The position numbers and the translations under genes are program-made. Below are positions 20,607 to 48,302 of a stretch of DNA of 64,000 nt, one piece after another. Source of the stretch: Nocardia shimofusensis NBRC 100134 (lineage in GTDB: Bacteria; Actinomycetota; Actinomycetes; Mycobacteriales; Mycobacteriaceae); contig NZ_BDBT01000005.1 in NCBI RefSeq assembly GCF_001613125.1, positions 124,001-188,000 on the forward strand, given 5' to 3'. Positions within the stretch are counted from its first letter, which is position 1, and each line of letters begins with the position of its first letter. Below the pieces are notes generated by a model, which saw nothing but the letters and a program-made list of their open reading frames with translations, was not told where the DNA came from and ran no database searches.

Positions 20607-20643
20607 ATCGGCACTCTATCGGCGGGGGGCGGCGGCTCCGACC

Positions 20644-21864: not shown

Positions 21865-21901
21865 CACTGCACCGCTTTCCTGCTGGTAGAGCCCGGATTC
21901 G

Positions 21902-21921
21902 CTCTACTTCAACTAAGAGAG
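21902..21921 (-). promoter_or_regulatory. operator-like element facing the SCP-x thiolase
   Basis: On the plus strand CTCTACTTCAACTAAGAGAG, ending 38 bases upstream of the thiolase start. Its last 11 bases, AACTAAGAGAG, recur exactly in inverted orientation at 22001-22011 before the dioxygenase. Its core TACTTCAA is shared with the module B element at 39235-39262. Confidence 0.6.
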
Positions 21922-21974
21922 CGTAAACCTGTCCGACGTTTCTGCCCAGCCCCCGACGGATTCCGGCGGCGGCC

Positions 21975-22018
21975 TTGACAAGGGCGGGCACCGCTAGTCA
22001 CTCTCTTAGTTGTAGAAC
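21975..22018 (+). promoter_or_regulatory. promoter and operator-like element of the module A dioxygenase
   Basis: TTGACA at 21975-21980 is a good -35 box. About 17 bases downstream begins CTCTCTTAGTTGTAGAAC (22001-22018), whose reverse complement shares AACTAAGAGAG and TCTAC with the element at 21902-21921. No strong -10 is visible. The same layout, TTGACA followed by an ACTTCA-type element, recurs before the PaaN-type gene at 41501. Confidence 0.5.
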
Positions 22019-22083
22019 CAATGGCGAAAGGCGGCACGCCCCGTGCCGTGCGAGTCGTCGCATGTGAGAGGCGAGAACAGGTC

Positions 22084-23601
22084 ATGGACGTTGACGTGGT
22101 GGGACGATTGCTGTCGACCCTTCCTGAGGACGACAACCATCCGTATCGGACAGGTCCGTGGCGTCCGCAGACCACCGAGTGGAAGGCCGACGATCTGCGG
22201 GTCGTCGAGGGCGCCGTCCCCCACGACCTGGACGGCGTCTACCTGCGCAATACCGAGAATCCGCTGCACCCGGCAATCAAGAACTACCACCCGTTCGACG
22301 GTGACGGCATGATCCACCTCGTCGGCTTCCGCGACGGAAAAGCGTTCTACCGCAACCGGTTCGTCCGCACCGACGGTCTGCTCGCCGAGAACGAGGCGGG
22401 TCGCCCGCTGTGGGCGGGCATGGCCGAGATGCCGGACTGGGCCGTGCGCGAGGACGGCTGGGGTGCGCGCAGGCGTATGAAGGACGCCTCGAGCACCGAT
22501 GTCACCGTGCACCGGGGCCGCGCGCTGACCAGCTTCTGGCAGTGCGGTGACCTCTACCGCCTCGACCCCTACTCCGCCGAGACGCTCGGCAAGGAGGACT
22601 GGAACGGCGGATTCCCATTCCACTGGGGCGTTTCCGCCCACCCCAAGGTCGACGAGGCGACCGGCGAACTGCTGTTCTTCAACTACAGCAAACAAGCGCC
22701 CTACATGAAGTACGGCGTCGTCGACGACAACAACGACCTCGTGCACTACGTCGACATCCCGCTGCCGGGCCCGCGCCTGCCGCACGACATGGCCTTCACC
22801 GAGAACTACGCGATCCTCAACGATCTGCCGCTGTTCTGGGACGCGGCCCTGCTCGAGCACGGCGTGCACCTGCCCCGCTACCACCGCGATCTGCCCTCGC
22901 GCTTCGCGATCATCCCGCGCCGCGGCCAGACCTCCGACATCAAGTGGTTCGAAGCCGACACCACCTATGTCCTGCACTTCACCAACGCCTACGAGGACGG
23001 CGACGAGATCGTCATGGACGGCTTCTACCAGGGCGATCCCGAGCCGTCGGCCGACGGTATCTCCGACAAGTGGGAGCGTGCCTTCCGTTTCCTCGCCCTG
23101 GACCACCTGCAGACCAGGCTGCACCGCTGGCGCTTCGACCTGGTCACCGGTCAGGTGAAGGAGGAGCAGCTCAGCGAGCGGATCACCGAGTTCGGCATGA
23201 TCAACGGCGCGCACGGCGGCCGCGAACACCGCTACGTCTACGCCGCCACCGGCAAGCCGGGACGGTTCTTGTTCGACGGGCTCGTCAAGCACGATGTGCA
23301 GACCGGCGCGGAGGAGCACTTCGCCTTCGGCGACGGCGTCTTCGGCAGCGAGACCTCGATGGCCCCGCGCGTGGGCAGCACGTCGGAGGACGACGGCTAC
23401 CTGGTCACGCTGACCACCGACATGAACGACGACGCCTCGTACTGCCTGGTCTTCGACGCCGCGCGGGTGAGCGACGGCCCGGTCTGCAAACTCCAGTTGC
23501 CGGAACGCATCTCGAGCGGCACGCATTCGACATGGGCGGCGGGCGAGGAACTGCGTCGCTGGCGCACGACCGACACCGCGGCCGAGGCCATCGGCCTGTA
23601 G
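22084..23601 (+). CDS. carotenoid oxygenase family dioxygenase (module A)
   Basis: A 505-residue non-haem iron dioxygenase of the carotenoid-cleavage/lignostilbene family, which splits a conjugated C=C bond to two carbonyls. All four iron-binding His positions are present: SAHPKVDEATGELL, RLPHDMAFTENY, VLHFTNAYEDGDE and GTHSTWAAG. FDGDGMIH and YLRNTEN near the N-terminus are also typical. The start MDVDVVGRLL at 22084 is preferred; an ATG at 22021 would overlap the operator region. The closest relative in the window is the dioxygenase at 46827 (shared AHPKVDEATGELL and GPRLPHDMA). The substrate, whether carotenoid, stilbenoid or other, cannot be read from the sequence. A thiolase follows after 75 bases. 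Confidence 0.93.
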   Translation: MDVDVVGRLLSTLPEDDNHPYRTGPWRPQTTEWKADDLRVVEGAVPHDLDGVYLRNTENPLHPAIKNYHPFDGDGMIHLVGFRDGKAFYRNRFVRTDGLLAENEAGRPLWAGMAEMPDWAVREDGWGARRRMKDASSTDVTVHRGRALTSFWQCGDLYRLDPYSAETLGKEDWNGGFPFHWGVSAHPKVDEATGELLFFNYSKQAPYMKYGVVDDNNDLVHYVDIPLPGPRLPHDMAFTENYAILNDLPLFWDAALLEHGVHLPRYHRDLPSRFAIIPRRGQTSDIKWFEADTTYVLHFTNAYEDGDEIVMDGFYQGDPEPSADGISDKWERAFRFLALDHLQTRLHRWRFDLVTGQVKEEQLSERITEFGMINGAHGGREHRYVYAATGKPGRFLFDGLVKHDVQTGAEEHFAFGDGVFGSETSMAPRVGSTSEDDGYLVTLTTDMNDDASYCLVFDAARVSDGPVCKLQLPERISSGTHSTWAAGEELRRWRTTDTAAEAIGL

Positions 23602-23676
23602 ATCCGCGGCTTGCAGATCTCCGGCCTGGGCTCCCCGGGCCGAACTCCCGCCCTCACCTCCTGCGATCGGAAATCC

Positions 23677-24876
23677 ATGTCTCAGTTCGCTTCCGACGTC
23701 TACGTCTACGACGCCGTGAGAACACCGAAGGGCCGCGTCAGACGCGACGGCGGAACGCTGGCGGACGTGCCCGCCTACGAACTGCTCGCCACCCTGCTGC
23801 GGTCGCTCGGCGAGCGGGGCCTGGACACCGATCTCGTCGAGGACGTGGTCATCGGCACCAGTACCGCGGCGGGCGAGCAGGGCGGTGACGTCGCCCGCGC
23901 CGCGGCACTGTGGGCGGGCTGGCCCGATGCCGTTCCCGGCGGGGTGGTCTCGCGGCTGTGCTGCTCCGGTCTCGACGCCATCGGGACGGCGACGGCCAAG
24001 GTCGCCTCCGGGATGAACGAACTCGTCGTCGCGGGCGGCGTGGAATCGATGTCGCGGGTGCCGATGCTGTTCGACAAGCCCGCCTTCGCCTTCGAAGGTG
24101 AGCTCCAGGACCGCACCGGCTACGTGACGATCGGCGTCGCGGCGGACCTCACCGCCGCGGACGCGGGCTTCACCCGTGCCGATCTCGACACCTACGCCGT
24201 GCGCTCGCACCAGCGTTCGGCCGCCGCACCGCCCTCGGCGTCGATCATTCCCCTGATGTCCGGCGAGTCGGTGATCCTCGCCCACGACGAAGGAGCCCGA
24301 AGCAATGCCGCAGTCGAAGGATTCGCGTCGCTGCCGACCCTTTTCGCCGAAGACCCTTCCTGGGAACGGGTCGCCCGGCAACTGCCCGACTCCCGGCGCC
24401 CGGCCGGCGGCCTGCACACGTTCGGCACCGCTCCCCAGCTCGCCGACGGAGCCTCCGCCCTCGTCCTGGGATCAGGACGAGCAGGATCCGCGCTCGGCGC
24501 CGCTCCCCTCGCCCGCATCGTGGGCGTGGCTCAGACGGCCGTACGCTCACCCCGCCTCACCGCATCCGTGCAGGCCGCACAGGACGCCCTCGCCCGAGCC
24601 GGAATCACCGCCGAGCGGCTCGATGTCGTCGAGGCCAACGAGTCGTTTGCGGTGTCACCGCTGCTGCTGACCCGCGAACTCGGCCTGGACCCGGGCCGGG
24701 TGAACCCGAACGGCGGCGCCGTCGCCACCGGTCACCCCCTCGGCGCCACCGGGGGCATACTGCTGGTGAACGCCCTGGACGAACTCGAGCGCATCGACGG
24801 CGAATTCGCCCTGCTCGCCATCCCCGGCGGTCTCGGCCTCGGCGCGGCGGTCGTCGTCCAGCGCGTTCGCCGCTGA
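23677..24876 (+). CDS. thiolase-like protein lacking the C-terminal catalytic Cys (module A)
   Basis: A 399-residue thiolase-fold enzyme, expected to act on a beta-ketoacyl-CoA. The nucleophile is Cys95 in VVSRLCCSGLDA; VESMSRVP and the His loop ATGHPLGATGG (after NPNGGAV) are intact. The usual second Cys motif near the end (C-x-G-x-G-x-G) is replaced by AIPGGLGLGAAV, with Pro and no Cys, so the classical acid/base pair is altered. At about 72 of the first 100 positions it is identical to the thiolase at 43365, which shows the same change. The protein is short in the middle (around residues 205-230) compared with typical thiolases. The ATG at 23677 is preferred because VYVYDAVRTPKG aligns with thiolase N-termini. 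A hairpin follows at 24946. Confidence 0.88.
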   Translation: MSQFASDVYVYDAVRTPKGRVRRDGGTLADVPAYELLATLLRSLGERGLDTDLVEDVVIGTSTAAGEQGGDVARAAALWAGWPDAVPGGVVSRLCCSGLDAIGTATAKVASGMNELVVAGGVESMSRVPMLFDKPAFAFEGELQDRTGYVTIGVAADLTAADAGFTRADLDTYAVRSHQRSAAAPPSASIIPLMSGESVILAHDEGARSNAAVEGFASLPTLFAEDPSWERVARQLPDSRRPAGGLHTFGTAPQLADGASALVLGSGRAGSALGAAPLARIVGVAQTAVRSPRLTASVQAAQDALARAGITAERLDVVEANESFAVSPLLLTRELGLDPGRVNPNGGAVATGHPLGATGGILLVNALDELERIDGEFALLAIPGGLGLGAAVVVQRVRR

Positions 24877-36599: not shown

Positions 36600-37553
36600 T
36601 CACCGCGCCAGGGCGGACCGCTCGCCGACCCGGCGCAGCGCGGCGGCGTATTCCTCGCCGATCCGGTCGACGATCTCCGACACCGGTTCGACCGCGCGGA
36701 TGTTCTGCAGGCCCTGGCCCGCGGCCCAGACGTCCTTCCACCGTTTGATCGAGGCGCCGCCCGCGGTGTAGTTCTTCGCGCCGGTGGCGGGTGCCAGGTT
36801 GTCGGGGTCGAGCCCCTGGGCGCGGATGCTGCCCTCGAGCCAGGAGGCCGGTGTGCCGGTGATGGCGTCGCTGACGATCAGGTCGTCGGGTCCGGCGTCG
36901 ACGACCATCTGCTTGTAGGCGGGCTCGGCCGAGCTCTCCCGGCTGGCGAGGAATCGGGTGCCCATGTAGACGAGATCGGCTCCGGCGGTGACGGCTCCGG
37001 CCACGCCGTGACCGTCGCTGATGCCGCCGCCGATGATGACCAGGCCGTCGAAGAAGTCGCGGATCGCCGAGGTGAAGGCGAACGGCGAGAGGTGGCCGGT
37101 GTGCCCGCCCGCCCCGGCGCAGACACACGCCATGCCGTCGACGCCGGCTTCGGCGGCCTTCCGGGCGAGCCGCATGTTCACCACGTCGGCGATGACCAGA
37201 CCGCCGTATCCCTTGACCACGTCCATCACCGGACGCGGTGAGCCGAGCGCGGTGATGACCACCGGGGGCCGGTACTCGGCGATCAGGCGCAGGTCGTCGG
37301 CGAGCCGGGCGTTGGTGCTGTGGGTGATGAGGTTGGCCGCCCAGGGGTCGGGCGAGCCGTCGCCGGAGCGTGCCTGATCGGTGATGGTGCCCATCCAGGT
37401 GTCGAGATCCTCGACGGTGCGGCAGTTCTGGGTGGGAAAGGAGCCGATGATGCCCGAGCGGCAGGCGGCGATCACGAGATCCGGTCCGGAGACGAGGAAC
37501 ATCGGCGCGGCGACGACGGGCAGGCGGAGGGCGGAGAGCAGGGCGTCGGTCAT
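36600..37553 (-). CDS. nitronate monooxygenase family flavoprotein
   Basis: A 317-residue FMN TIM-barrel of the 2-nitropropane dioxygenase/NMO family. Features are PVVAAPMFLVSGPDLV, GIIGSFPTQNCR, VCAGAGGHTGHLSP (flavin loop with the active-site His region) and GGGISDGHGVAGAVTAGADLVYMGTRFL (phosphate binding). In actinobacterial catabolic clusters such genes often act as enoyl-reductase-like or detoxifying enzymes, with substrate unknown. It is 24 bases upstream of the acyl-CoA ligase, on the ligase's strand, and so probably ends that transcript. Confidence 0.9.
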   Translation of the reverse strand: MTDALLSALRLPVVAAPMFLVSGPDLVIAACRSGIIGSFPTQNCRTVEDLDTWMGTITDQARSGDGSPDPWAANLITHSTNARLADDLRLIAEYRPPVVITALGSPRPVMDVVKGYGGLVIADVVNMRLARKAAEAGVDGMACVCAGAGGHTGHLSPFAFTSAIRDFFDGLVIIGGGISDGHGVAGAVTAGADLVYMGTRFLASRESSAEPAYKQMVVDAGPDDLIVSDAITGTPASWLEGSIRAQGLDPDNLAPATGAKNYTAGGASIKRWKDVWAAGQGLQNIRAVEPVSEIVDRIGEEYAAALRRVGERSALAR

Positions 37554-37577: not shown

Positions 37578-39218
37578 TCACGCACGCGAGGGCGCGGCGA
37601 CGACGGATCGACTGGTCAGCGGCGCGAGCATGCGGGCGACCGCGGCGCGATCGACCTTGCCCAGCGCGGTCAGCGGAAAGGCCGGCAGGCGGTGGACGGA
37701 CTTGGGGCGTTTGTAGTCGGGCAGCACCTCGCGGCTGCGGCGCAACACCTCCACCTCGGTGAGCTCCGGGTCGGTGAGCTCCGGGTCGGTGAGCTCCGGG
37801 TCGGTGAGCTCCGCCTCGGTGAGATCGGCCCGAGATTCGGCGGTGTAGGCCGCGACGATCCGCTGACCCCACACGGGGTCGGCCAGCCCGACCACCACCG
37901 CGTCGGTCACTCCGGGGATGGTCAGCAGCGCCTGCTCCACTTCGCGTGGATACACGTTGTACCCGCCGGTGATGATCATGTCTTTGCTGCGGCCGGTGAG
38001 ATGCAGGTAGCCGTCGGCCGCCCGGAAGCCCAGATCACCGGAGTGCAGACGGCCGCCGCGATGGCTCTTGCCGAGATCGGTCCGGGTTCCGGCATCGTGG
38101 TACCCCGGGCCGACGGCGGGTCCGGCGATCACCAGTTCACCGATCTGCCCGTCGGATACCGCGACATCGCCGTCACGGAAGTCGATGTCCACGCCGGCGC
38201 ACGGCCTACCGACCGAGGCGAGGATCTCGCTGTCCTCGTCCATCCCCCGGCGATGGGCGGCGATGCCGAGCACCGTCAGCGGCGGGATGGCCTCGACCAT
38301 GCCGTAGTACTGGACGAGATTCGGCGTGATGCGGTGGTAGGCCTGCCGGATGTGCTCGACCGGCATGGGCGCGCCCGCGTAGGCCAGCATGCGCAGGCGG
38401 CGCAGCGCGGTCAGTTCGGCATCGCCGAACTCCAGCAGCCTGGCGATCACCGTGGGGACGAGTGCGGTGTGGGTGCCGCGACAGCCGGCGACGGCGGCGA
38501 GCAGTTCCGCCGGACGGGCATGGTCGAGGAGCACCTGTTTCCCGCCCGCGGCGAGGAAGGGCAGGACGAACAGCCCGCTGGTGTGGATGACGGGCCCGGC
38601 GTGCACGAAGACCGGGGGCTCCGGTCCGTCCAGGGTGCCGGCGAGGACGTGGTCGAGCATGGCGCGCAGTGAGGCGAGCCGGTTGGCGTGGGTGCGCTTG
38701 GCGCCCTTGGGCACACCGGTGGTACCCGAGGAATAGTGCAGGGCGCACAGCGCATTCGGTTCTAGTTCGCGGAGCCGCGGGCGAGCAGGCGCCGCCGCGG
38801 CGATGCCGTCGAGTGTCGCGGTGCCGGTGTCGTCGTCCACGGCGGCGATCAGCACGGACACCGGGGCGGCTGCGGCGAACTCCCGTGCCCCGTCGACGCC
38901 GGGATCGTAGACGAGCGCGCACGGTCGGCAGTCGTCCATGATCCGCGCCCAGTCCCGTTGCCCCACCCGCGGATTGAGCGCGACACGGACGAACCCGCCG
39001 ATCGTGAGTGCCAGATCGACCTCGATCGAGGCCACCGAGTTCGGCAGCAGCACCGACACGGCGCCGCCCGGCGCGACCCCGCGCGCGGCGAATCCGGCGG
39101 CCAGCCGGTGCACGCGATCGGACAGTTCGGCGAAGCTCAGGCTCCGCGCGCCGTCCGCCACCGCGAGGTCCGCGCCGAACCTCTCGGCGGCGGTCCGGAC
39201 GACATTCGCGATCGACAT
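37578..39218 (-). CDS. acyl-CoA / aryl-CoA ligase (ANL superfamily, module B)
   Basis: A 546-residue AMP-forming ligase. The P-loop is LHYSSGTTGVPKGAKRTH; further motifs are QYYGMVEAIPPL, the hinge region HSGDLGFRAADGYLHLTGRSKDMIITG in overlapping parts, and catalytic Lys in LTALGKVDRAAVA near the C-terminus. It activates a carboxylate through an adenylate. The start at 39218 has GGAGGG about ten bases before it. The C-terminal domain contains the tandem peptide ELTDP repeated three times plus a variant, encoded by a 15-base DNA repeat. Its promoter has the operator-like element at 39235-39262 and is shared with the divergent thiolase. Confidence 0.92.
   Translation of the reverse strand: MSIANVVRTAAERFGADLAVADGARSLSFAELSDRVHRLAAGFAARGVAPGGAVSVLLPNSVASIEVDLALTIGGFVRVALNPRVGQRDWARIMDDCRPCALVYDPGVDGAREFAAAAPVSVLIAAVDDDTGTATLDGIAAAAPARPRLRELEPNALCALHYSSGTTGVPKGAKRTHANRLASLRAMLDHVLAGTLDGPEPPVFVHAGPVIHTSGLFVLPFLAAGGKQVLLDHARPAELLAAVAGCRGTHTALVPTVIARLLEFGDAELTALRRLRMLAYAGAPMPVEHIRQAYHRITPNLVQYYGMVEAIPPLTVLGIAAHRRGMDEDSEILASVGRPCAGVDIDFRDGDVAVSDGQIGELVIAGPAVGPGYHDAGTRTDLGKSHRGGRLHSGDLGFRAADGYLHLTGRSKDMIITGGYNVYPREVEQALLTIPGVTDAVVVGLADPVWGQRIVAAYTAESRADLTEAELTDPELTDPELTDPELTEVEVLRRSREVLPDYKRPKSVHRLPAFPLTALGKVDRAAVARMLAPLTSRSVVAAPSRA
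37756..37815 (+). repeat. 15-base in-frame tandem repeat inside the acyl-CoA ligase
   Basis: TCGGTGAGCTCCGGG occurs three times exactly (37756-37800), followed by one copy ending GCC (37801-37815) and a truncated copy. On the coding strand it gives ELTDP units in the C-terminal domain. The unit length of five residues keeps the frame, so copy number could vary between strains. Confidence 0.9.
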
Positions 39219-39234
39219 GGCTACTCGACCCTCC

Positions 39235-39262
39235 ATTTCACTACAGTTATTGAAGTAAACTA
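39235..39262. promoter_or_regulatory. 28-base operator-like element in the ligase/thiolase divergent promoter
   Basis: On the minus strand it begins TAGTTTACTTCAATAACTG and continues TAGTGAAAT. An almost identical element, TGGTTCACTTCAGCAACCG plus TAGTAAATT, is at 41521-41548 before the PaaN-type gene, with about 22 of 28 positions identical by hand count. The core TACTTCAA also occurs in the module A element at 21902-21921. It is 17 bases from the ligase start. Confidence 0.65.
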
Positions 39263-39321
39263 CGGACGTGCCGGATCGCGCAACAGACCATCCGGCCCCC
39301 GAGGCAGAGGAGCCACCACCG

Positions 39322-40509
39322 ATGACCCGTCCCGCCACCGACCCACGCACCCCCTGGATCGTGGACGCGGTCCGCACGCCGTTCGGCGCGGCCAGGGGCG
39401 CGCTGTCCCACATCCGCGCCGACGACCTCGCCGCATTGCCGATCGCCGATCTGCTGGCGCGGCATCCGGATCTGGACCCCGCGCGCATCGACGACGTGGT
39501 GTGGGGCAATGCCAACGGCGCGGGCGAGGACAACCGCAATGTCGCGCGGATGGCGCTGCTGCTGGCGGGACTCCCGCACACGATTCCGGGCGTCACCGTC
39601 AACCGGCTGTGCGGATCCGGCGCGGAGGCTCTGCTCTCGGCGTCGCGTCGAATCGCCGCCGGCGACGCCGACGTGGTGCTGACCGGCGGCTCGGAGAGCA
39701 TGAGCCGAGCGCCCTACGTGCTGCCGCCGATCGATTCCGCCTTTCCCCGGCACCTGGACCTGACGCCGACGACGGTCGGCTGGCGCATGGTCAACCCCCG
39801 CTTCCCCGCCGCCTGGGTCGAGTCGCTCGGCCGTTCGGCGGAACTGGTCGCCGAGAGCAAGGGCATCGGGCGGCTCGAACAGGACGAGTGGGCGCTGCGC
39901 TCCCACGAACTCGCGAAGAAGGCCTGGTCGGACGGCGTGCACACGGAATTCGCTCTGCCGCGGGCCGATCTCGCGCGTGACGAGTCCATCCGCGATACCA
40001 GCGCCGCGACGCTGGCCGGGTTGCGGCCTGCGTTCTCCCCGCAGGGCACCGTCACCGCGGGCAACTCCTCACCGATGAACGACGGAGCCGTGGCGGCGCT
40101 GGTGGCCGGTGGCGCTGTGGTGTCCGAACTGGGCGTGCGGCCGCTGGGCCGGGTGCTGTCGTCCGCTGTCGTCGGCGTGGAACCGGATCTGTTCGCCGTG
40201 GCCCCGGTTCCGGCGATCACCAAGGCACTCGAGCGCGCCGGGCGCGCCCCGGCCGACGTGCGCGTCCTGGAACTGAACGAGGCGTTCGCCGCGGTGGTGC
40301 TGGCGTGTCTGCGGGAACTGCCGGGGATCGCGCCCGAGCGGGTGAATCCGTTCGGCGGCGCGATCGCGATGGGACACCCGCTCGGCGCGTCGGCGGCCCG
40401 GATCGTCGTCGACTGCCTGCGTCACCTGCGACGGCTCGGCGGCGGAATCGGCGTCGCCGCGGCGTGCGTCGGCGTCGGACAGGGCATCGCTATTGTGTTG
40501 GAAGCCTGA
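39322..40509 (+). CDS. acetyl-CoA acetyltransferase (thiolase)
   Basis: A 395-residue thiolase of the degradative FadA type. The nucleophile Cys is in NRLCGSGAEALL; GGSESMSRAP, His in AMGHPLGASAARI and the second catalytic Cys in AACVGVGQGIA are all present, unlike in the two module thiolases at 23677 and 43365. It cleaves a 3-oxoacyl-CoA with CoA. The ATG at 39322 is preceded by GAGGAG; the GTG at 39268 lacks a ribosome-binding site. It is followed after 36 bases by the tandem-HxlR regulator. Confidence 0.93.
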   Translation: MTRPATDPRTPWIVDAVRTPFGAARGALSHIRADDLAALPIADLLARHPDLDPARIDDVVWGNANGAGEDNRNVARMALLLAGLPHTIPGVTVNRLCGSGAEALLSASRRIAAGDADVVLTGGSESMSRAPYVLPPIDSAFPRHLDLTPTTVGWRMVNPRFPAAWVESLGRSAELVAESKGIGRLEQDEWALRSHELAKKAWSDGVHTEFALPRADLARDESIRDTSAATLAGLRPAFSPQGTVTAGNSSPMNDGAVAALVAGGAVVSELGVRPLGRVLSSAVVGVEPDLFAVAPVPAITKALERAGRAPADVRVLELNEAFAAVVLACLRELPGIAPERVNPFGGAIAMGHPLGASAARIVVDCLRHLRRLGGGIGVAAACVGVGQGIAIVLEA

Positions 40510-40545
40510 GCGAGAGCGTCGGGACAGCCGGTACGGAAGGCGGGG

Positions 40546-41466
40546 TTGGCAGTGGCCGAGAACGCCGGTCCCGCCGCGACCGCCAGTCCGGTCGCCCAGA
40601 CCATCGATCTGCTCGGCGACCGGGTGACGGTGGCGATCCTGCGCGACGCCTTCGTCGATCACGTCAGACGTTTCGGCGAATGGCTCGACCGGACCGGCGC
40701 ACCGCCGGCGATTCTGACCTCCCGCCTCAACGCCCTGGTCGACGCCGGGCTGATGCGGCGGACGCCGCAGTCCGGCGGCTACGACCGGCACGACTACCTG
40801 CTCACCGACCTGGGGCTGGCGACATGGGAGCTGCTGGTCGCCATCTGGTCCTGGCAACGGGAATGGTCCGCCGACGGGCTGCTGCAGCCGGAGCTGGTGC
40901 ATGTGCGGTGCGGGCATCGTGGTCCGCCGGAACTGATCTGCCGGCACTGCGGCCGGCTCGCCAAGGCGCGCGACGTCCATGTGGAGATGGACCCCGACTC
41001 GCTGGTGCTGGCGGGCAAGGGCTGGCGCCGATCCACCCGCAGCACACCCACGCTCAGCCGGGTCGATCTGCAGTTCACCGAGGTCATGGAGGCGATCGGC
41101 GATCGCTGGAGCGCCCTGGTGACCGGACTGGCACTGTCGGGCGTGCGCCGATTCGGCGAGTTCCAGTCGATCCTGAAGATCTCCCCGTCCACGCTGACCG
41201 AACGGTTGGCGCGGCTGACGGAAGCGCAGATGATCACCCGCGACGACGGCGGCCGCGAGTACCGGATGACACCCCGCGGCCGGGCGCTGTTCCCCATCTT
41301 CGCTTTCCAGGTGGCCTGGGCGCAGCAGGCGCATCCCGATGTCCCGGTCGAGCAGCTGGGCCCGCGTCTGCACCACGACGCCTGCGGGAACTGGTTCGAT
41401 CCGGCGCTGCGCTGCCGTGGATGTGATGCCGTGCTCGACCGCACGTCGGTGCAGTTCCACGCCTGA
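40546..41466 (+). CDS. tandem-domain HxlR-family regulator with two Cys-rich knuckles (module B)
   Basis: A 306-residue protein with two HxlR winged helices: about 15-105 (LLGDRVTVAILRDAF, YLLTDLGLATWELL) and about 178-265 (AIGDRWSALVTGLALSG, YRMTPRGRALFPIF). Each is followed by a C-x8-C-x2-C knuckle (CGHRGPPELICRHC, CGNWFDPALRCRGC). The arrangement matches the module A protein at 19644-20606, including knuckle positions, so the two are paralogues. The start is a TTG at 40546 or a GTG at 40552; GGAAGG precedes both. It sits between two copies of the operator-like element (39235 and 41521) and probably recognises them; that is inference. Confidence 0.9.
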   Translation: MAVAENAGPAATASPVAQTIDLLGDRVTVAILRDAFVDHVRRFGEWLDRTGAPPAILTSRLNALVDAGLMRRTPQSGGYDRHDYLLTDLGLATWELLVAIWSWQREWSADGLLQPELVHVRCGHRGPPELICRHCGRLAKARDVHVEMDPDSLVLAGKGWRRSTRSTPTLSRVDLQFTEVMEAIGDRWSALVTGLALSGVRRFGEFQSILKISPSTLTERLARLTEAQMITRDDGGREYRMTPRGRALFPIFAFQVAWAQQAHPDVPVEQLGPRLHHDACGNWFDPALRCRGCDAVLDRTSVQFHA

Positions 41467-41500
41467 TCACGCACAGCGCCACCGCTTTTTCGCCGACACG

Positions 41501-41548
41501 TTGACAATCGCGCTGTGTCTTGGTTCACTTCAGCAACCGTAGTAAATT
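41501..41548 (+). promoter_or_regulatory. promoter with overlapping operator-like element for the PaaN-type gene
   Basis: TTGACA at 41501-41506, a 17-base spacer, then TTCACT as a weak -10. The element TGGTTCACTTCAGCAACCG plus TAGTAAATT (41521-41548) covers the -10 and start region, as a repressor site would, and nearly matches 39235-39262. Confidence 0.6.
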
Positions 41549-41592: not shown

Positions 41593-43368
41593 ATGCCTCA
41601 CCTCGCACCAGCCTTCGACAGGAACCCACTGTTCATGTTCTTCGAAAAGCACTCCGACCTGCTCGCCGCAGCCGTGGAGGCCAATCGGACCCGCACCGCG
41701 TGGACCGGCTTCGCACCGATCACCCCGCCCGAGGCGACCAGGGCCGTCGAACTCGTCGGCGCATACGACGGCCGCACGCTCGAGATGTCGACGCAGACCG
41801 CCTCGACCATCACCGCCGAGGAGATCTCCCCCTACACCGGCAAGGCGCTGAACGTCTCCTACAGCGCGCCCTCGCCGGAAGAAGCCCTGCACGCGGCAGC
41901 CGTGGCCGCGCCCGCCCTGCGCGCGGCCTCCGCCGAGCAGCGGGTGGGCGTGTGCCTGGAAGCGCTGTCGCGCATCCACGCGCGCGGCACGGAATTCGCC
42001 GCGGTCACCTCGCACACCACCGGGCAGAGCCTGGGCATGGCGTGCAGCGGCAGCGGCACCAACGCGCTGGATCGCGGGCTGGAAGGCGTCGCCATGGCGT
42101 GGGCCGCCCTCCGGCGGATTCCCGAATCCGTCACCTGGCAGGCGACGTTCGGCAAGACCGCGGTGACGCTGCGCAAGCGCTTCCGGCCCCGGCCGCTGGG
42201 CGCCGCGCTGGTCGTCGCGTGCGCGTCGTTCCCGGCGTGGAACGCTTACCCCGCCATCCTGGTCAACCTCGCCACCGGCAATCCGGTCCTGGTCAAACCT
42301 CATCCGTGTTCGGTCCTGGCCACCGCCCTGGCCGTGGGCGTGCTTCGCGACGTCCTGCGCGAGGCCGGCCTGCCCGCCGATGCCGTGCAATTGGTGGTCG
42401 ACACCGTCGAGGAGCCGATCGCCGGGCGGCTCGCGACCGACCCGGCCATTCGCATCATCGATTTCACCGGCAGCCCGGCCTTCGGGAACTGGCTCGAACA
42501 GAACTGCCGCCACGCACTGGTCTTCACCGAGACCGCGGGCGTGAACACGGTCGTGCTCGATTCCGTCCACGACCTGCCCGCCACGGTTCGCACACTGGCA
42601 GGCGGTCTTTCGCTGTTCAGCGGCCAGATGTGCACCACGCCGCAGAACATCTACATCCCCGACGCGGGGGTGCGCACCGATACGGGCACAGTGCCGCGCG
42701 AGGAGGTCGTCGCGGCACTCCGCGACGCCCTGGACGAACTCGCCGCGGCGCCGCGCCGGGCCGCGGCCGTCTGTGGGGCGCTGCAGTCGGAGTCCACGCC
42801 GGCTTCGCTGCGCGTCCTCGCCGAGGAAGCCGAACGCGACGGCACCCTCGTCCGTCCGCCCACCGCCTACGAGCACCCGGACCACCCTGGCGCGCGGGTC
42901 ACGACGCCGATGCTCATCCGCCTCGACCCCCGCCGAGGCGACACCTTGCCCGCGGGCGAGCAGTTCGGCCCGGTGGCCTTCCTCATCGACTGCGCCGACA
43001 CCGCGGCCGCGGTCGCCCACGCCACCGACAGCGTGCGCGCCCACGGTGCGATCAGTTCCTACCTGTACTGCACCGATGACGACACCGTCGACGAGATCGC
43101 CGACGCCTACGCCGACGCGGGCGCCTCGCTGTCGGTCGACCTGGTCTCCTCCATGCCGATGCAGTACGCGGCCGCCTACAGCGATTACCACGTCACCGGC
43201 CTGAATCCGGCGGGCAACGCCACCCTCACCGACGAGTCGTTCGTGGCCGGACGCTTCCGGCTCGTGCAGGACCGCCGCCAGGTGGCGGACCGAGAACACA
43301 GCCAGGTGGCGGACCGAGAACACAGCCAGGTGGCGGACCGAGAACACAGCCAGGTGGCGAGCCGATGA
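41593..43368 (+). CDS. paaN: PaaN-type aldehyde dehydrogenase
   Basis: A protein of about 591 residues in the PaaN group of the aldehyde dehydrogenase superfamily. Diagnostic stretches are LFMFFEKHSDLLAAA, TSHTTGQSLGMA, NPVLVKPHPCSVL, the catalytic Glu in VFTETAGVNTVV and the catalytic Cys in FSGQMCTTPQNIYIP. PaaN proteins oxidise a CoA-linked or free semialdehyde in phenylacetate-type catabolism; no other paa genes are here, so it may instead oxidise the aldehyde released by the dioxygenase. The family normally ends at RxVQxRR; here three and a half copies of QVADREHS follow, from a 24-base repeat. An ATG at 41635 is an alternative start. The stop overlaps the next ATG (ATGA). Confidence 0.88.
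   Translation: MPHLAPAFDRNPLFMFFEKHSDLLAAAVEANRTRTAWTGFAPITPPEATRAVELVGAYDGRTLEMSTQTASTITAEEISPYTGKALNVSYSAPSPEEALHAAAVAAPALRAASAEQRVGVCLEALSRIHARGTEFAAVTSHTTGQSLGMACSGSGTNALDRGLEGVAMAWAALRRIPESVTWQATFGKTAVTLRKRFRPRPLGAALVVACASFPAWNAYPAILVNLATGNPVLVKPHPCSVLATALAVGVLRDVLREAGLPADAVQLVVDTVEEPIAGRLATDPAIRIIDFTGSPAFGNWLEQNCRHALVFTETAGVNTVVLDSVHDLPATVRTLAGGLSLFSGQMCTTPQNIYIPDAGVRTDTGTVPREEVVAALRDALDELAAAPRRAAAVCGALQSESTPASLRVLAEEAERDGTLVRPPTAYEHPDHPGARVTTPMLIRLDPRRGDTLPAGEQFGPVAFLIDCADTAAAVAHATDSVRAHGAISSYLYCTDDDTVDEIADAYADAGASLSVDLVSSMPMQYAAAYSDYHVTGLNPAGNATLTDESFVAGRFRLVQDRRQVADREHSQVADREHSQVADREHSQVASR
43279..43362 (+). repeat. 24-base in-frame tandem repeat at the 3' end of paaN
   Basis: Three exact units (43279-43302, 43303-43326, 43327-43350), each beginning CAGGTGGCGGACCGAG and encoding QVADREHS, plus a partial fourth unit leading into the stop. 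The repeat appends a charged tail to the protein and runs up to the coupled start of the next gene. Confidence 0.92.
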
Positions 43369-44567
43369 CACAGTTCGAACCCGGCGTCTTCGTCTACGAC
43401 GCGATCCGCACCCCGAAGGCCCGCGTCCGCCGCGACGGCGGAACCTTCGCCGAGGTACCCGCCTACGAACTGCTGGCGCAGGTGCTGCGCGAGCTGACCC
43501 GGCGCGGCGTCCCGGCCGATCGCATCGACGACGTGGTGATCGGCACCAGCACCGCGTTCGGTGATCAAGGCGGCAATGTCGCCCGCGCGGCCCTGCTGTG
43601 GGCGGGCTGGCCCGACGAGACCGCCGCGGGCGTGGTGTCGCGGCTGTGCTGTTCGGGACTGGACGCCATCGAGACCGGCGCCGCGAAGATCGCCGCGCGC
43701 AGTGCGGATCTGGCGGTCGTGGGCGGCGTCGAATCCATGTCCCGGGTACCGATGATGTCCGACGACCCCGCTTTCGTCACCAGCGCCGCACTCGGCGACC
43801 GGACCGGATACGTCACCATCGGCGTCTCGGCCGACCTCACCGCGATGCGGTACGGATTCAGCAGGGAAGACCTCGACGCGAGCGCGGTCGTCTCGCACCG
43901 CCGTGCCGCGGCCGCGGCTGCCTCGGACTCGGACTCGATCGTGCCCGTACACGGCCCCGACGGGACCCTGCTGAGCGCCGACGAAGGCCCCCGACCCGAC
44001 ACCACGCTCGAGGGCCTGGCCGGCTTGCGGCCGCTCTTCGGCGCGGACCCGTCGTGGGAGCGCGTCGAACAGCGACTGCCCGGCGTCACCCGTCCCGCCA
44101 CCGGCCTGCACACCGCGGCCACGGCGCCCCAGCCCGCCGACGCCGCAGCCGCGGCGGTGCTCGGCAAGCGCTCCGCCGCAGCGCTTTTCGATCGTCCACC
44201 GCTTGCGGAGATCGTCGGCGTCGCGCACGCTGCGGTCCGCTCCCCGCTGCTGACCGCGCCGGTCGTCGCGGCGAGAAAGGCCCTCGACAGCGCGGGCATC
44301 TCGCCCGGCCGCCTCGACGTCGTCGAGGCGAACGAGTCCTTCGCCGCATCGACACTGGCGATGATCCGCGAGCTCGAGCTCGACCCGGCGAAGGTCAACC
44401 CCAACGGCGGGTCCATGGCCACCGGACACCCGCTCGGCGCGGCCGGCGGCGTGCTGCTCGTCGACGCGCTCGACCAGTTGCGCCGCATCGACGGCGAGCA
44501 CGCCCTGATCACCATCCCCGCCGCACTCGGCCTCGGCGCCGCACTCGTCGTCCGACGCCTGCGCTGA
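43365..44567 (+). CDS. thiolase-like protein lacking the C-terminal catalytic Cys (module B)
   Basis: A 400-residue paralogue of the thiolase at 23677 (72 of the first 100 residues identical by hand count, no gaps). The nucleophile is Cys95 in VVSRLCCSGLDA, and the His loop is ATGHPLGAAGG. The terminal motif is TIPAALGLGAAL, so the second catalytic Cys is missing here too, while the rest of the fold is kept. Strong coupling to paaN through ATGA suggests the two act on consecutive intermediates. It may have changed chemistry, for example hydrolysis, synthase-like activity or a different acid/base. Confidence 0.9.
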   Translation: MTQFEPGVFVYDAIRTPKARVRRDGGTFAEVPAYELLAQVLRELTRRGVPADRIDDVVIGTSTAFGDQGGNVARAALLWAGWPDETAAGVVSRLCCSGLDAIETGAAKIAARSADLAVVGGVESMSRVPMMSDDPAFVTSAALGDRTGYVTIGVSADLTAMRYGFSREDLDASAVVSHRRAAAAAASDSDSIVPVHGPDGTLLSADEGPRPDTTLEGLAGLRPLFGADPSWERVEQRLPGVTRPATGLHTAATAPQPADAAAAAVLGKRSAAALFDRPPLAEIVGVAHAAVRSPLLTAPVVAARKALDSAGISPGRLDVVEANESFAASTLAMIRELELDPAKVNPNGGSMATGHPLGAAGGVLLVDALDQLRRIDGEHALITIPAALGLGAALVVRRLR

Positions 44568-44600: not shown

Positions 44601-46346
44601 ATGACCTCCACGGCGGAACGCCCTCCCGCTCAGCACCTTCGCTCCTGCCACCCCGAATCCCGCGTGCGGGATTTCCTCGGTCGCGGCTGGTGGCGGCCCG
44701 AGACCGTGCTCCACCTGTTCGACGGTCACGTCGCCGCACGCGGCGACCACGCCGCGATCACCGACGCCCCCAATCTCACCGAGCTGTGCGGCCTCACGCC
44801 GCGATCGCTGACCTGGCGTGAACTCGACACCGAGATCGACGAACTCGCCGCCCGCCTGCACGCCGACGGCATCCGCGCGGGCGACGTGGTGGCGGTGTTG
44901 ATGCCCAACTCCGTCGCGCTCACCGCCACCTACTTCGCGCTGTGGCGGCTCGGCGCGATCGCCGCGCCCATGCCCGCCTCCTACCGCCGCCACGAGCTGA
45001 GCCGGATCGTCGCCTCCTGCGAGGCGGTCGCGGTCGTCACTGTCACCGCTCTCGGCGATCGGACCCCGCACGAGGAGGCGCTGTCGCTGATCGGCGAAAC
45101 CTCATCCCTTCGTACTGTTTTCACTTTCGGCGCGGCGAGCGGCGCACAGTCCGTGGCGCTCGACGACGCATCACCGTCCGAGGAGACGATCCGCGACGTC
45201 CGGCACTACATCGCCCAGCTCCCCCGCACCGTCAACGACTGCCTCACCATCTGCTGGACCAGCGGCACCGAAGCCGCCCCCAAGGGCATCCCCCGCTGCC
45301 ACGCCGACTGGCTCGCCATCGGGCAGGCGGCCCAGGACGGCTTGCTGGCGGCGGCGGATTCGGTGATCGTGGGCCCCTTCCCGATGGTCAACATGGCCGG
45401 CTTCGCGACGTCGCTACTGCCCTGGCTCTTCGGCGGCAGCCATCTGGTGCAGCACCATCCCCTCGATCTCGGCGTCTACCTGTCCCAGATCCAGACCCAT
45501 CGCGCCACCCACACCAGCATGCCGCCCGCCATCCTGGCCCTGTTGTTGCAGAACGCCGCCCTGCGCGCGCAGTTCGATCTGTCCTCGCTGCGCAAGGTCG
45601 GCTCCGGCGGCGCCCCGCTGCCGCCCAGCGTGGTACGCGACTGGCAGGTCGACCTCGGCATCGACGTGCTCAACTTCTTCGGCTCCAACGAGGGCATCTG
45701 CCTGCTCGGCGTGCCCGCCGACACCCCTGACCCGATGATGCGCGCCGAATACCTGCCGAACTACAGCTCCCCGGCGAAGAAATGGTCGACGTCGGTGGCC
45801 GAACGCACCTCGGTGCGGCTGGTCGACCTCGACGGCGAAACGGAGATCACCACGCCCGGCGGACGCGGGGAACTGCGGTTGAAGGGCCCCACCGTCTTCG
45901 CCGGATACCTGCCCGGCACCGCCGAGAGCAGCCCGTTCGACGACGAGGGCTACCTGCGCACCGGCGACGTCTTCGAATTGTGCGGCGAGCACGGCGAATA
46001 CCTGAAGTTCGTCGACCGCAGCAAGGAGATCATCATTCGCGGCGGGATGAACATTGCGCCCGCCGAGATCGAGGGTCTGCTCATCGCCCATCCCGCGGTC
46101 GCCGATGTCGCCGTCGTCGGCTACCCGGACGCGGTGCTCGGCGAGAAGTGTTGCGCTGTAGTCGTTCCCGCGCCGGGTCAGGAACTTGCTCTCGACACCC
46201 TGGTGTCCTTCCTGCGCGAGAAGGACGTCGCCTCGTTCAAACTTCCCGAGAAACTGCTGACCGTCGAGACTCTGCCGCGCAACCCCATCGGCAAACTCCA
46301 GCGCCGTGAACTGCGCGGCCTGGTCACCGGGGACGAGCACCCGTGA
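44601..46346 (+). CDS. AMP-dependent acyl-CoA synthetase (module B)
   Basis: A 581-residue ANL-superfamily ligase. The P-loop is TICWTSGTEAAPKGIPR, the adenine-binding motif is NFFGSNEGICLLG, the hinge is FVDRSKEIIIRGGMNI, and the catalytic Lys is in PRNPIGKLQRRELRG. It differs from the ligase at 37578 in substrate-pocket segments and resembles cyclohexanecarboxylate/aryl-CoA ligases more; the substrate is unknown. A typical ribosome-binding site (AAGGAG) is upstream. The thioesterase gene starts within its stop codon (GTGA). Confidence 0.92.
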   Translation: MTSTAERPPAQHLRSCHPESRVRDFLGRGWWRPETVLHLFDGHVAARGDHAAITDAPNLTELCGLTPRSLTWRELDTEIDELAARLHADGIRAGDVVAVLMPNSVALTATYFALWRLGAIAAPMPASYRRHELSRIVASCEAVAVVTVTALGDRTPHEEALSLIGETSSLRTVFTFGAASGAQSVALDDASPSEETIRDVRHYIAQLPRTVNDCLTICWTSGTEAAPKGIPRCHADWLAIGQAAQDGLLAAADSVIVGPFPMVNMAGFATSLLPWLFGGSHLVQHHPLDLGVYLSQIQTHRATHTSMPPAILALLLQNAALRAQFDLSSLRKVGSGGAPLPPSVVRDWQVDLGIDVLNFFGSNEGICLLGVPADTPDPMMRAEYLPNYSSPAKKWSTSVAERTSVRLVDLDGETEITTPGGRGELRLKGPTVFAGYLPGTAESSPFDDEGYLRTGDVFELCGEHGEYLKFVDRSKEIIIRGGMNIAPAEIEGLLIAHPAVADVAVVGYPDAVLGEKCCAVVVPAPGQELALDTLVSFLREKDVASFKLPEKLLTVETLPRNPIGKLQRRELRGLVTGDEHP

Positions 46347-46789
46347 GCGGCGAGCCGCTGCCACGCCCGACGCCGAAAGGCTCCGGCCCGGCACTGGCCG
46401 AGGCATTGACCGGAATGCTCTGCGGCCGTCTCCCCGGCAACCTCGGCATCCGGGTCGTGTCCGCCTCGCCCGACCGGGTCGTCGGCGAATTCACCGTCCA
46501 CGAAGGCCTGCTCGCGCCCAACGGCTATCTGCACGCCGCGTCGGTCGTCGCGCTGGCCGACACCATGTGCGGCATCGGCACCCGGCTGTCCATCCCCGAC
46601 GACGCGGCCTTCACCACGGTCGAACTGAAAACCAACTATCTCGGCACCGCCCGCTCGGGCGTCGTCACCGCCACCGCGATCGCCGCCCATACCGGCAGAC
46701 GCACCCAGGTCTGGGACGCCACCGTGCGTGACGGCGACGACCGGACGATCGCGCTGTTGCGCTGCACGCAACTGGTCTTCCAGCCGTAG
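46343..46789 (+). CDS. PaaI-type hotdog-fold thioesterase
   Basis: A 148-residue single-hotdog protein. The motif GLLAPNGYLHAASVVALADTM contains the catalytic Asn/Asp-type region and HAA helix of the PaaI group, followed by TVELKTNYLGTARSG. It hydrolyses acyl- or aryl-CoA thioesters, perhaps to recycle CoA when intermediates stall. The GTG start overlaps the stop of the ligase gene. Confidence 0.9.
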   Translation: MSGEPLPRPTPKGSGPALAEALTGMLCGRLPGNLGIRVVSASPDRVVGEFTVHEGLLAPNGYLHAASVVALADTMCGIGTRLSIPDDAAFTTVELKTNYLGTARSGVVTATAIAAHTGRRTQVWDATVRDGDDRTIALLRCTQLVFQP

Positions 46790-46826
46790 CAGCCGCGGGC
46801 CGATTCCGCATCGAAAGGACCAGATC

Positions 46827-48302
46827 ATGACCAGCTCGAACCTCGAGGCGAGCGTTCCCGTCGCCGTCGCCCGCACGGCCGACCCGAGCGTGCAGAACCC
46901 CTACCTGCTCGGTGTCTTCGCTCCCGTCCGCGAGGAGCTGACCCTCGACGACCTGCCGGTGATCGGCGAGATCCCCGCCGACCTCAACGGCGTCTACCTG
47001 CGCAACGGCCCGAACCGCCAGTTCGACGCGCCCGGCCGGTACCACATGTTCGACGGCGACGGCATGATCCATGCCGCGCATTTCGAGAACGGCAAGGTCA
47101 GGTACCGCAACCGGTACGTGCGCACCCGCGCCTTCGCCCAGGAGTCCGAGGCGGGCCGCGCGCTGTGGACCGGCCTCATGGAGAACCCGAAGGACAACCC
47201 CTGGGGCAACGGCCACGGCCTGGGCATCAAGGACGCCGCCAACACCGACGTCATCTACCACCGCGGCCAGGTACTGGCCACCTGGTACCTGTGCGGCACT
47301 CCGTACGGCATCGACCCGCTCTCACTGGAAACCATCGGCGCGCAAGACTTCCTGGGCACCTTCGCCGGCGACATGATGGCCCATCCCAAGGTCGACGAGG
47401 CCACCGGCGAACTGCTCTGGTTCGACTACGGCCCGGACATGGACTACCTGCGCTACGGCATCATCGGCGCCGACGGCACCCAGACCCATCTCGCCCACAT
47501 CGATCTGCCCGGCCCGCGCCTGCCGCACGACATGGCGATCACCCCGAACTACTCGATCCTCATGGATCTCCCGCTGGTGCAGGACCACGAGGCGCGCAAG
47601 GCGGGCAAGTACCGCATCTACTACGACCGCGAACTCGTCTCCCGCTTCGCCGTCATCCCCCGCCACGGCGCGGGCGATCAGGTGCGCTGGTTCGAGGCGA
47701 AGCCCTGCTACATCTACCACGTCGTCAACTCCTGGGAAGAGGGCGACGAGATCGTCATGGACGTGTGCCGGGTGAAGAACCCCCAGCACCAGAGCACCTT
47801 CGACCACCCGCTGGCCAGCATGCTCGCCTACATGCGCCTGGACGCCCAGCTCTACCGCTATCGCTTCGACCTGCGCACCGGCGCCACCAGCGAACACGCC
47901 CTCGACGAGGCCAACATCGAATTCCCCAGCGTCGACTCGCGCATCATGGGCCGGCCGCACCGCTACTCCTACAACATGAGCCTCGCCCACGAGCCCACCC
48001 TGCTGTTCGACGGCCTGGTGCGGTTCGACTCCTCCACCGGCACGAAGGAGGAGCACAAGTTCGGTCCCGGCCGCTGGGGCTCGGAAGCCCCCTTTGCACC
48101 CCGCGACGGATCGACCGGCGAGACCGACGGCTACCTGGTCTGCTTCGTCAACGACGAGACCGAGGACCGAGGCGAGATCGACATCTTCGACGCCGCCGAT
48201 GTCGCCGCCGGTCCGCTCGCGAGAGTGCTTCTGCCGCAACGTGTCCCTTCCGGTTTTCACGCCACGTGGGTGCGCGGGGATCAGCTCGCCCAGGGGGGCT
48301 GA
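46827..48302 (+). CDS. carotenoid oxygenase family dioxygenase (module B)
   Basis: A 491-residue iron dioxygenase paralogous to the one at 22084. The four iron His are in MMAHPKVDEATGELL, RLPHDMAITPNY, YIYHVVNSWEEGDE and GFHATWVRG; VYLRNGPNRQF and FDGDGMIHAAHF are typical N-terminal motifs. The ATG at 46827 has GAAAGGACC upstream. It is the last gene of the module B operon, only 37 bases after the thioesterase, so cleavage of a conjugated double bond is linked by position to aldehyde oxidation and CoA chemistry. The alkene substrate is unknown. Confidence 0.93.
   Translation: MTSSNLEASVPVAVARTADPSVQNPYLLGVFAPVREELTLDDLPVIGEIPADLNGVYLRNGPNRQFDAPGRYHMFDGDGMIHAAHFENGKVRYRNRYVRTRAFAQESEAGRALWTGLMENPKDNPWGNGHGLGIKDAANTDVIYHRGQVLATWYLCGTPYGIDPLSLETIGAQDFLGTFAGDMMAHPKVDEATGELLWFDYGPDMDYLRYGIIGADGTQTHLAHIDLPGPRLPHDMAITPNYSILMDLPLVQDHEARKAGKYRIYYDRELVSRFAVIPRHGAGDQVRWFEAKPCYIYHVVNSWEEGDEIVMDVCRVKNPQHQSTFDHPLASMLAYMRLDAQLYRYRFDLRTGATSEHALDEANIEFPSVDSRIMGRPHRYSYNMSLAHEPTLLFDGLVRFDSSTGTKEEHKFGPGRWGSEAPFAPRDGSTGETDGYLVCFVNDETEDRGEIDIFDAADVAAGPLARVLLPQRVPSGFHATWVRGDQLAQGG

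Follow-up and report, generated by a model that had tools for sequence, protein, structure and literature searches.

Two similar short elements stand at two catabolic promoters on either side of a gene for a regulator with two HxlR domains, which raises the question of whether they are operators and, if so, of which protein. We addressed this question by sequence comparison within the window (the whole 64,000-nt stretch of Nocardia DNA that was analyzed), across the genome, and among related genomes. The comparisons make it very probable that the two elements, O1 and O2, are operators of the tandem HxlR encoded between them, and that this protein represses a carotenoid-oxygenase/thiolase/CoA-ligase pathway. 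The region, referred to here as module B, has the following features.

36600 to 37553, minus strand: NMO/FabK-like flavoprotein, probably in the ligase operon (adjoins the ligase in relatives)
37578 to 39218, minus strand: AMP-binding acyl-CoA ligase, the first gene left of O1
39237 to 39259, minus strand: candidate operator O1, TTTACTTCAATAACTGTAGTGAA read in the ligase direction (from sequence; copy upstream of HxlR at 50 of 52 loci)
39323 to 40509, plus strand: thiolase, upstream of HxlR in the same direction (ATG at 39323 behind GAGGAG, or GTG at 39268)
40546 to 41466, plus strand: tandem-HxlR regulator of 306 amino acids with two units, each a winged HTH and HxxC-x9-CxxC (PF01638, two stretches)
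41524 to 41546, plus strand: candidate operator O2, TTCACTTCAGCAACCGTAGTAAA read in the paaN direction (copy downstream of HxlR at 49 of 51 readable loci)
41635 to 43368, plus strand: PaaN-like aldehyde dehydrogenase, first gene of the O2 operon (TIGR02288 below cut-off)
43365 to 44567, plus strand: second thiolase, O2 operon
44601 to 46346, plus strand: second acyl-CoA ligase, O2 operon
46343 to 46789, plus strand: hotdog (4HBT) thioesterase
46827 to 48302, plus strand: carotenoid-cleavage-oxygenase family (RPE65) enzyme (PF03055)

Two related elements flank the tandem-HxlR gene

An earlier note on this DNA had described nearly identical 28-base elements, one at the divergent ligase/thiolase promoter and one behind the TTGACA of paaN, with the tandem-HxlR gene between them. 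The position at the divergent promoter and the placement on both sides of HxlR proved right. The likeness itself also stood, at a corrected 21 rather than about 22 identical bases of 28 (minus strand 39262 to 39235 against plus strand 41521 to 41548, in inverted orientation); none of 1,000 Markov-resampled versions of both intergenic regions reached 21, the maximum being 20. Both sites stand out as A+T-rich in a genome otherwise rich in G+C, and two such promoter stretches might resemble each other by chance; these controls, together with the conservation and the promoter geometry described below, refute that explanation.

The GTT-n9-AAC frame that the earlier note had seen in the elements was abandoned, since it is not kept in relatives; the frame conserved instead is ACT-N11-AGT, with a 17-base asymmetric core, ACTACAGTTAWTGAAGT. 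The symmetric frame common to both elements, TTYACTWCR-N5-YGWAGTRAA, is a 23-base imperfect inverted repeat at 39237 to 39259 (minus strand) and 41524 to 41546 (plus strand). Allowing up to 3 mismatches, this pattern occurs at 2 places within the window, and none of 100 shuffles reached two; it was derived from the same two sites that the count returns, so the independent evidence lies in conservation. Across the whole genome (6.33 Mb, 75 contigs), the same search gave 9 places (O1 and O2 exactly, and 7 others with 2 or 3 mismatches), compared with 6 for the reversed control. A pattern variant with a four-base spacer had zero matches. The asymmetric core, again with up to 3 mismatches, was found in the whole genome only at O1 and O2 (2 for the control), with O2 being a diverged copy that has 3 mismatches to it; the occurrence at random frequency that the earlier note had named as one outcome contradicting its reading was not seen in this genome-wide scan.

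The element is inherited together with the tandem-HxlR gene

Relatives of the protein of 40546 to 41466, counted at E<=1e-60, occur in 41 of 150 same-genus genomes and 27 of 401 family genomes (the samples overlap). The core with at most 1 mismatch was found in 38 of the 150 genus genomes, all inside the 41 carrying HxlR, whereas the reversed-pattern control gave 0 (Fisher p 2e-32 for the co-occurrence, with relatedness ignored). In the family sample, it was found in 22 of 401 genomes, 21 of them inside the 27 with HxlR; G153 has one core match without HxlR, and the control pattern gave 7 matches in this sample by our count. HxlR genomes missed at this threshold (G003, G035, and G131 in the genus; G003, G198, G214, G221, G254, and G304 in the family) have sites with 2 to 4 mismatches. 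The named relatives, at 12 loci, belong to Nocardia, Prescottella, and Rhodococcus, and the element goes with the tandem-HxlR gene in these genera as well as in further genomes of the family. The operator is co-inherited with the regulator, as in a local repressor-operator system; this and the fixed distance from a -35 box (see below) support, at the level of sequence, the proposal in the earlier note that the element is the operator of a local regulator.

Which local regulator this might be is another matter, as relatives of the oxygenase occur in 45 of the 150 genomes, including all 41 with the module B HxlR, and HxlR is therefore not separable from the rest of the cluster by co-occurrence alone. 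O1 and O2 could belong to a regulator encoded elsewhere (TetR, GntR, LysR, or another HxlR), with the tandem-HxlR gene merely carried along: regulator and cluster are always together, the genome counts do not single out HxlR, and of the 18 HxlR-domain matches in this genome, 14 lie elsewhere than in the two tandem genes. We nevertheless consider an outside regulator quite improbable. HxlR was chosen as the owner because of its gene position and because of a paralogue with a matching operator variant, both of which are described in the following sections.

The pair is kept in three gene arrangements

The ARRANGEMENTS locus survey covered 52 of the 57 HxlR places from the genus and family searches; G042, G091, G111, G149, and G104:C23 stand outside the survey and the promoter and core counts. 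Copy positions and orientations relative to HxlR were set by tblastn, with up to 4 mismatches to the core allowed. The core lies upstream of HxlR at 50 of 52 loci and downstream at 49 of the 51 with readable DNA, and the two copies form an inverted pair at every locus having both. The L113 locus reaches a contig edge, with no downstream DNA; the same genome has a copy next to its oxygenase gene, where a different contig ends. L116 and L117, where HxlR is about 50% identical, have no good copy flanking the HxlR gene; an "up -" match at L117, from two neighboring tandem-HxlR genes that had been merged, and a weak 4-mismatch "dn" match were not counted. Both L117 matches are still among the 97 distinct 47-base sites, and a recount was made without L116 and L117.

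Three gene orders were found around the operator pair. In the first, that of this window, O1 lies between the ligase and thiolase-HxlR, and O2 lies before paaN-thiolase-ligase-thioesterase-oxygenase. In the second, HxlR by itself lies between the two sites, followed by an oxygenase-thiolase-ligase operon; the absence of any other gene between them speaks against an outside regulator, as does the finding that no other regulator is common to the arrangements among the open reading frames matched to those of the window (unmatched ones are partly annotated). In the third (G259 and G264), the pair, with sites of 1 to 3 mismatches, is about 160 bases apart between divergent ligase and paaN genes, and an HxlR about 50% identical lies about 4 kb away; the oxygenase gene was not seen in the two stretches examined. 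Since the pair stayed at the promoters with the HxlR gene about 4 kb off, the sites follow the promoters.

The copies lie over predicted -10 elements at a fixed distance from the -35 box

The promoter elements assigned in the window are the following.

39254 to 39259, minus strand: predicted -10 TTTACT of the ligase promoter, 18-base spacer, overlapped by O1
39278 to 39283, minus strand: predicted -35 TTGCGC of the ligase promoter (TTGC-type box at 19 of 19 loci)
41501 to 41506, plus strand: -35 box TTGACA of the paaN operon promoter (from sequence; 49 of 49 loci)
41524 to 41529, plus strand: predicted -10 TTCACT, 17-base spacer, overlapped by O2 (weak consensus match)

A perfect TTGACA ends 20 to 22 bases before the downstream core at 49 of 49 loci, this genome included (L116 and L117 were left out beforehand, and L113 is without a downstream copy), and the predicted -10 of the downstream copies (TTCACT or TATCAC) includes or abuts the opening bases of the operator. 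The overlap of the second element with the -10 behind the paaN TTGACA, as claimed earlier, is thereby borne out. On the ligase side, a TTGC-type hexamer ends 20 to 21 bases before the core at 19 of 19 loci of the first arrangement, in a search that used this genome's TTGCGC as the target. The -10 hexamers are weak, and a plain sigma-70 consensus scan found no promoter, which counts against the model. With TTGACA at 20 to 22 bases, the copies fall on the -10/start region, the usual place of a repressor operator; overlap with the predicted -10 and start of the promoters that would be controlled is a second property expected of a local repressor-operator system.

The same geometry bears on the direction of regulation. 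HxlR family members act both ways: in the available text of PMC7835342, Bacillus subtilis HxlR is a positive regulator, and in that of PMC6798810, YodB is a repressor. The protein might therefore bind O1 and O2 and activate, like HxlR at hxlAB. We regard activation as unlikely, since the sites begin 20 to 22 bases after a perfect TTGACA and lie over the predicted -10 and start, where a bound protein would block the polymerase.

In the first arrangement, the copies share polarity toward their promoters and are therefore inverted to each other. In the second, the upstream copy stands before HxlR with a polarity opposite to HxlR transcription, and the rule of equal polarity fails there. DNA looping from the inverted arrangement was dropped as unneeded, the promoters at O1 (ligase side) and O2 pointing apart with the same polarity for each.

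A paralogous module has a different candidate operator pair

The window contains a second module of similar composition, module A, where a tandem HxlR and thiolases accompany a further RPE65-family oxygenase (22021 to 23601).

19644 to 20606, minus strand: paralogous tandem-HxlR regulator (PF01638, two stretches)
21906 to 21922, plus strand: candidate operator OA1, ACTTCAACTAAGAGAGC, in the divergent promoter of module A
22000 to 22016, minus strand: candidate operator OA2, TCTACAACTAAGAGAGT, 19 bases after TTGACA at 21975 to 21980

OA1 and OA2 are an inverted pair in the divergent promoter of module A, with the consensus WCTWCAACTAARAGAGY, and they keep the frame of O1 and O2. Among the 150 genomes, this pattern with at most 1 mismatch occurs at 8 places in 5 genomes, each of which belongs to the 9 that carry a module A-type HxlR; outside this genome there are 6 places, all directly before thiolase or oxygenase genes. 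Since the reversed control outnumbers the pattern, the count proves nothing by itself, and the proof lies in the positions. Likewise, operator-like pairs per locus were near the shuffled mean even where true pairs lie (L201, L202, and L204), and what supports the module A pairs is their identity and their location. Around another module A-type gene, L202 shows a second inverted pair. No operator pair accompanies the G064 copy of the module (L203), in which the thiolase is fragmented, and the more distant tandem-HxlR loci (L197 to L200 and L206) gave no further operators clearly above shuffled controls.

Read in the same direction, the operators of modules A and B share ACTWCA and the center, and the other half is NAGAGT in A and TGAAGT in B. 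Different operators in the two modules, each beside its own tandem HxlR, are not easily explained by a regulator encoded elsewhere. Because the protein encoded at 19644 is associated with another operator pair, located at its own promoters, the HxlR encoded at 40546 is the likely owner of O1 and O2. The pairing of regulator type and module extends to other genomes: 4 of the 45 oxygenase genomes are without the module B HxlR and carry a module A-type tandem HxlR. The exceptions are G117, which has a module A-type HxlR and no oxygenase at E<=1e-100, and G102, where the two are on different contigs.

A two-domain chain and a consistently asymmetric candidate operator

The protein of 40546 to 41466 belongs to the PF01638 family (76 bits against a cut-off of 20.8, in two stretches). 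H119/C122/C132/C135 and H277/C280/C290/C293 are invariant in 13 aligned sequences (L050, whose frame stops early, was left out of the alignment); among more distant relatives, HxxC-x9-CxxC is not kept in all, one cysteine being replaced in L144. The form of this motif suggests zinc binding. An AlphaFold2 model was of fair quality (pLDDT 80, pTM 0.79); the PDB entries that it matches best are HxlR proteins with a single unit, and such structures match each half.

Core positions 4 and 14, which would be an A/T pair in a palindrome, are A/A in 49 of 49 downstream and 46 of 50 upstream copies. In the recount of distinct 17-mers, A/A occurs in 27 of 31 and a complementary pair in 3 of 31. The TACAGT made by A/A is kept in the downstream copies, though it points back into HxlR there. 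A consistently nonpalindromic operator fits a single-chain pseudo-dimer, and such a pseudo-dimer on a directional operator would be the natural reading. Alternatively, the operator might be of a symmetric homodimer type, its nonpalindromic positions merely reflecting overlap with promoter elements, with TACAGT serving as a -10 in the HxlR direction. Where the HxlR start codon adjoins, TACAGT in the upstream copy could indeed be a -10, and the few cores with a complementary pair fit symmetry; the uniform A/A of the downstream copies and its near uniformity upstream argue against it, and we view a symmetric operator as a possible but doubtful explanation.

The single-chain reading can be widened to single-chain HxlR pseudo-dimers in general. 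They would read directional operators in which the ACTWCA half is shared between paralogues and the other half, over the -10, is paralogue specific; gene fusion would have freed the domains to diverge, giving orthogonal, oriented repressors, as a rule one per carotenoid-oxygenase catabolic module. We give this wider proposal about an even chance. The recognition helices of both domains differ between modules A and B, and the assignment of half-sites to domains had no clear answer.

Proposed mode of action and related systems

Control by operators at promoters is a feature of the HxlR/DUF24 family, and a palindromic operator is usual for its canonical repressors, though not defining for the domain family. 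By sequence, each module B copy starts within the predicted -10 of a catabolic promoter and extends across the start region, and the tandem HxlR would repress by blocking RNA polymerase at O1 and O2. The target of O2 would be the paaN-thiolase-ligase-thioesterase-carotenoid oxygenase operon, and those of O1 would be ligase-NMO on one side and thiolase-HxlR on the other, so that HxlR synthesis may itself be controlled via the thiolase-HxlR promoter. One molecule might occupy each operator, with each HxlR domain reading one half, because two unlike HxlR domains share one chain and the operator is consistently nonpalindromic.

YodB, CatR, HypR, and QsrR (HxlR/DUF24, MarR-like, from Firmicutes) share the PF01638 winged HTH with the tandem HxlR, whose C-terminal unit aligns with YodB. 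HxlR/DUF24 repressors are dimers of single-domain subunits, as far as the available text of PMC6798810 and PMC7835342 goes. Compared with the YodB type, each chain of the protein described here contains two unlike HxlR domains together with two HxxC-x9-CxxC units, and O1 and O2 are imperfect inverted repeats instead of palindromic operators; it is accordingly filed under the domain family only. Bacillus subtilis HxlR, a formaldehyde-sensing activator of the same Pfam family, is a dimeric winged-HTH protein on DNA; the available portions of PMC7835342 describe the dimer crystallized on a fully palindromic 20-mer and two monomers joined artificially through a fluorescent protein, whereas the domain fusion here is natural. 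The nearest solved structures to the N-terminal unit are PA1607 and PA1374 of Pseudomonas aeruginosa (2f2e and 4gcv), which have a single unit, the HxxC-x9-CxxC segment falling outside the part aligned by phmmer; no operator for either appeared in the searches made here. The accessible part of PMC3751702 mentions HxlR once, in a legend. Among the matches listed from titles and abstract starts of the open-licence PMC literature, there was no double HxlR regulator or such an operator, and on that alone we take the sites as unreported.

A double-domain HxlR regulator thus gains a defined candidate operator, a promoter position, and a target set, which a pair of short DNA probes can test. Should the single-chain reading be correct, the system would offer a natural test of how half-site reading is split by a duplicated winged-helix repressor, and it could supply actinobacteria with repressors that are oriented and insulated from one another.

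The proposed target pathway and its possible inducer

From the gene families, the pathway would cleave a conjugated double bond and degrade the products through CoA esters. The longer oxygenase frame, 46728 to 48302, belongs to PF03055 (460.5 bits against a cut-off of 27); against the three NCBIfam equivalogs listed, the oxygenase scored below every cut-off, the closest being apocarotenoid and lignostilbene enzymes. The aldehyde dehydrogenase reached 539.8 bits with TIGR02288, below the cut-off of 578.75, and is called only PaaN-like. The pathway itself probably supplies the inducer: release from O1 and O2 may occur when a substrate, aldehyde, or CoA intermediate binds or modifies the protein. 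The element marks a group of oxygenase/thiolase/CoA-ligase modules, for which the operator would be a handle on the inducer. On the O1 side, the NMO/FabK-like gene adjoins the ligase gene in L040, L042, L045, L049, L149, and L150.

The window contains a second carotenoid-oxygenase/thiolase module (module A, 19644-24876), which has a tandem HxlR of its own and an inverted pair of predicted operators of its own, in the same ACT-N11-AGT frame as in module B. Both tandem-HxlR proteins (40546-41466, plus strand, in module B; 19644-20606, minus strand, in module A) carry a segment of the HxxC-x9-CxxC type behind each winged helix, and this segment is likely a zinc site; the closest solved structures (for the N-terminal unit, the single-unit PA1607 and PA1374 of Pseudomonas aeruginosa, 2f2e and 4gcv) lack it in the part that aligns.

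Several tandem-HxlR genes occur in one genome (G064; loci L202 and L203), where one is reported with an internal TAG and another adjoins a fragmented thiolase and is without operators; these loci look like the outcome of a duplication of module A, with decay under way.

Where two operator copies flank HxlR alone, the upstream operator shares its last bases with a possible GTG start codon of HxlR (L031, L039, and L107), which suggests, at the sequence level, that the HxlR transcript in this arrangement may be leaderless, with TACAGT as the -10 element.

Two enzyme genes of module B contain in-frame tandem repeats: the paaN-like gene has 24-base units repeating QVADREHS at its 3' end (about 43279-43360), and the acyl-CoA ligase gene has 15-base units repeating LTDPE (about 37757-37828).
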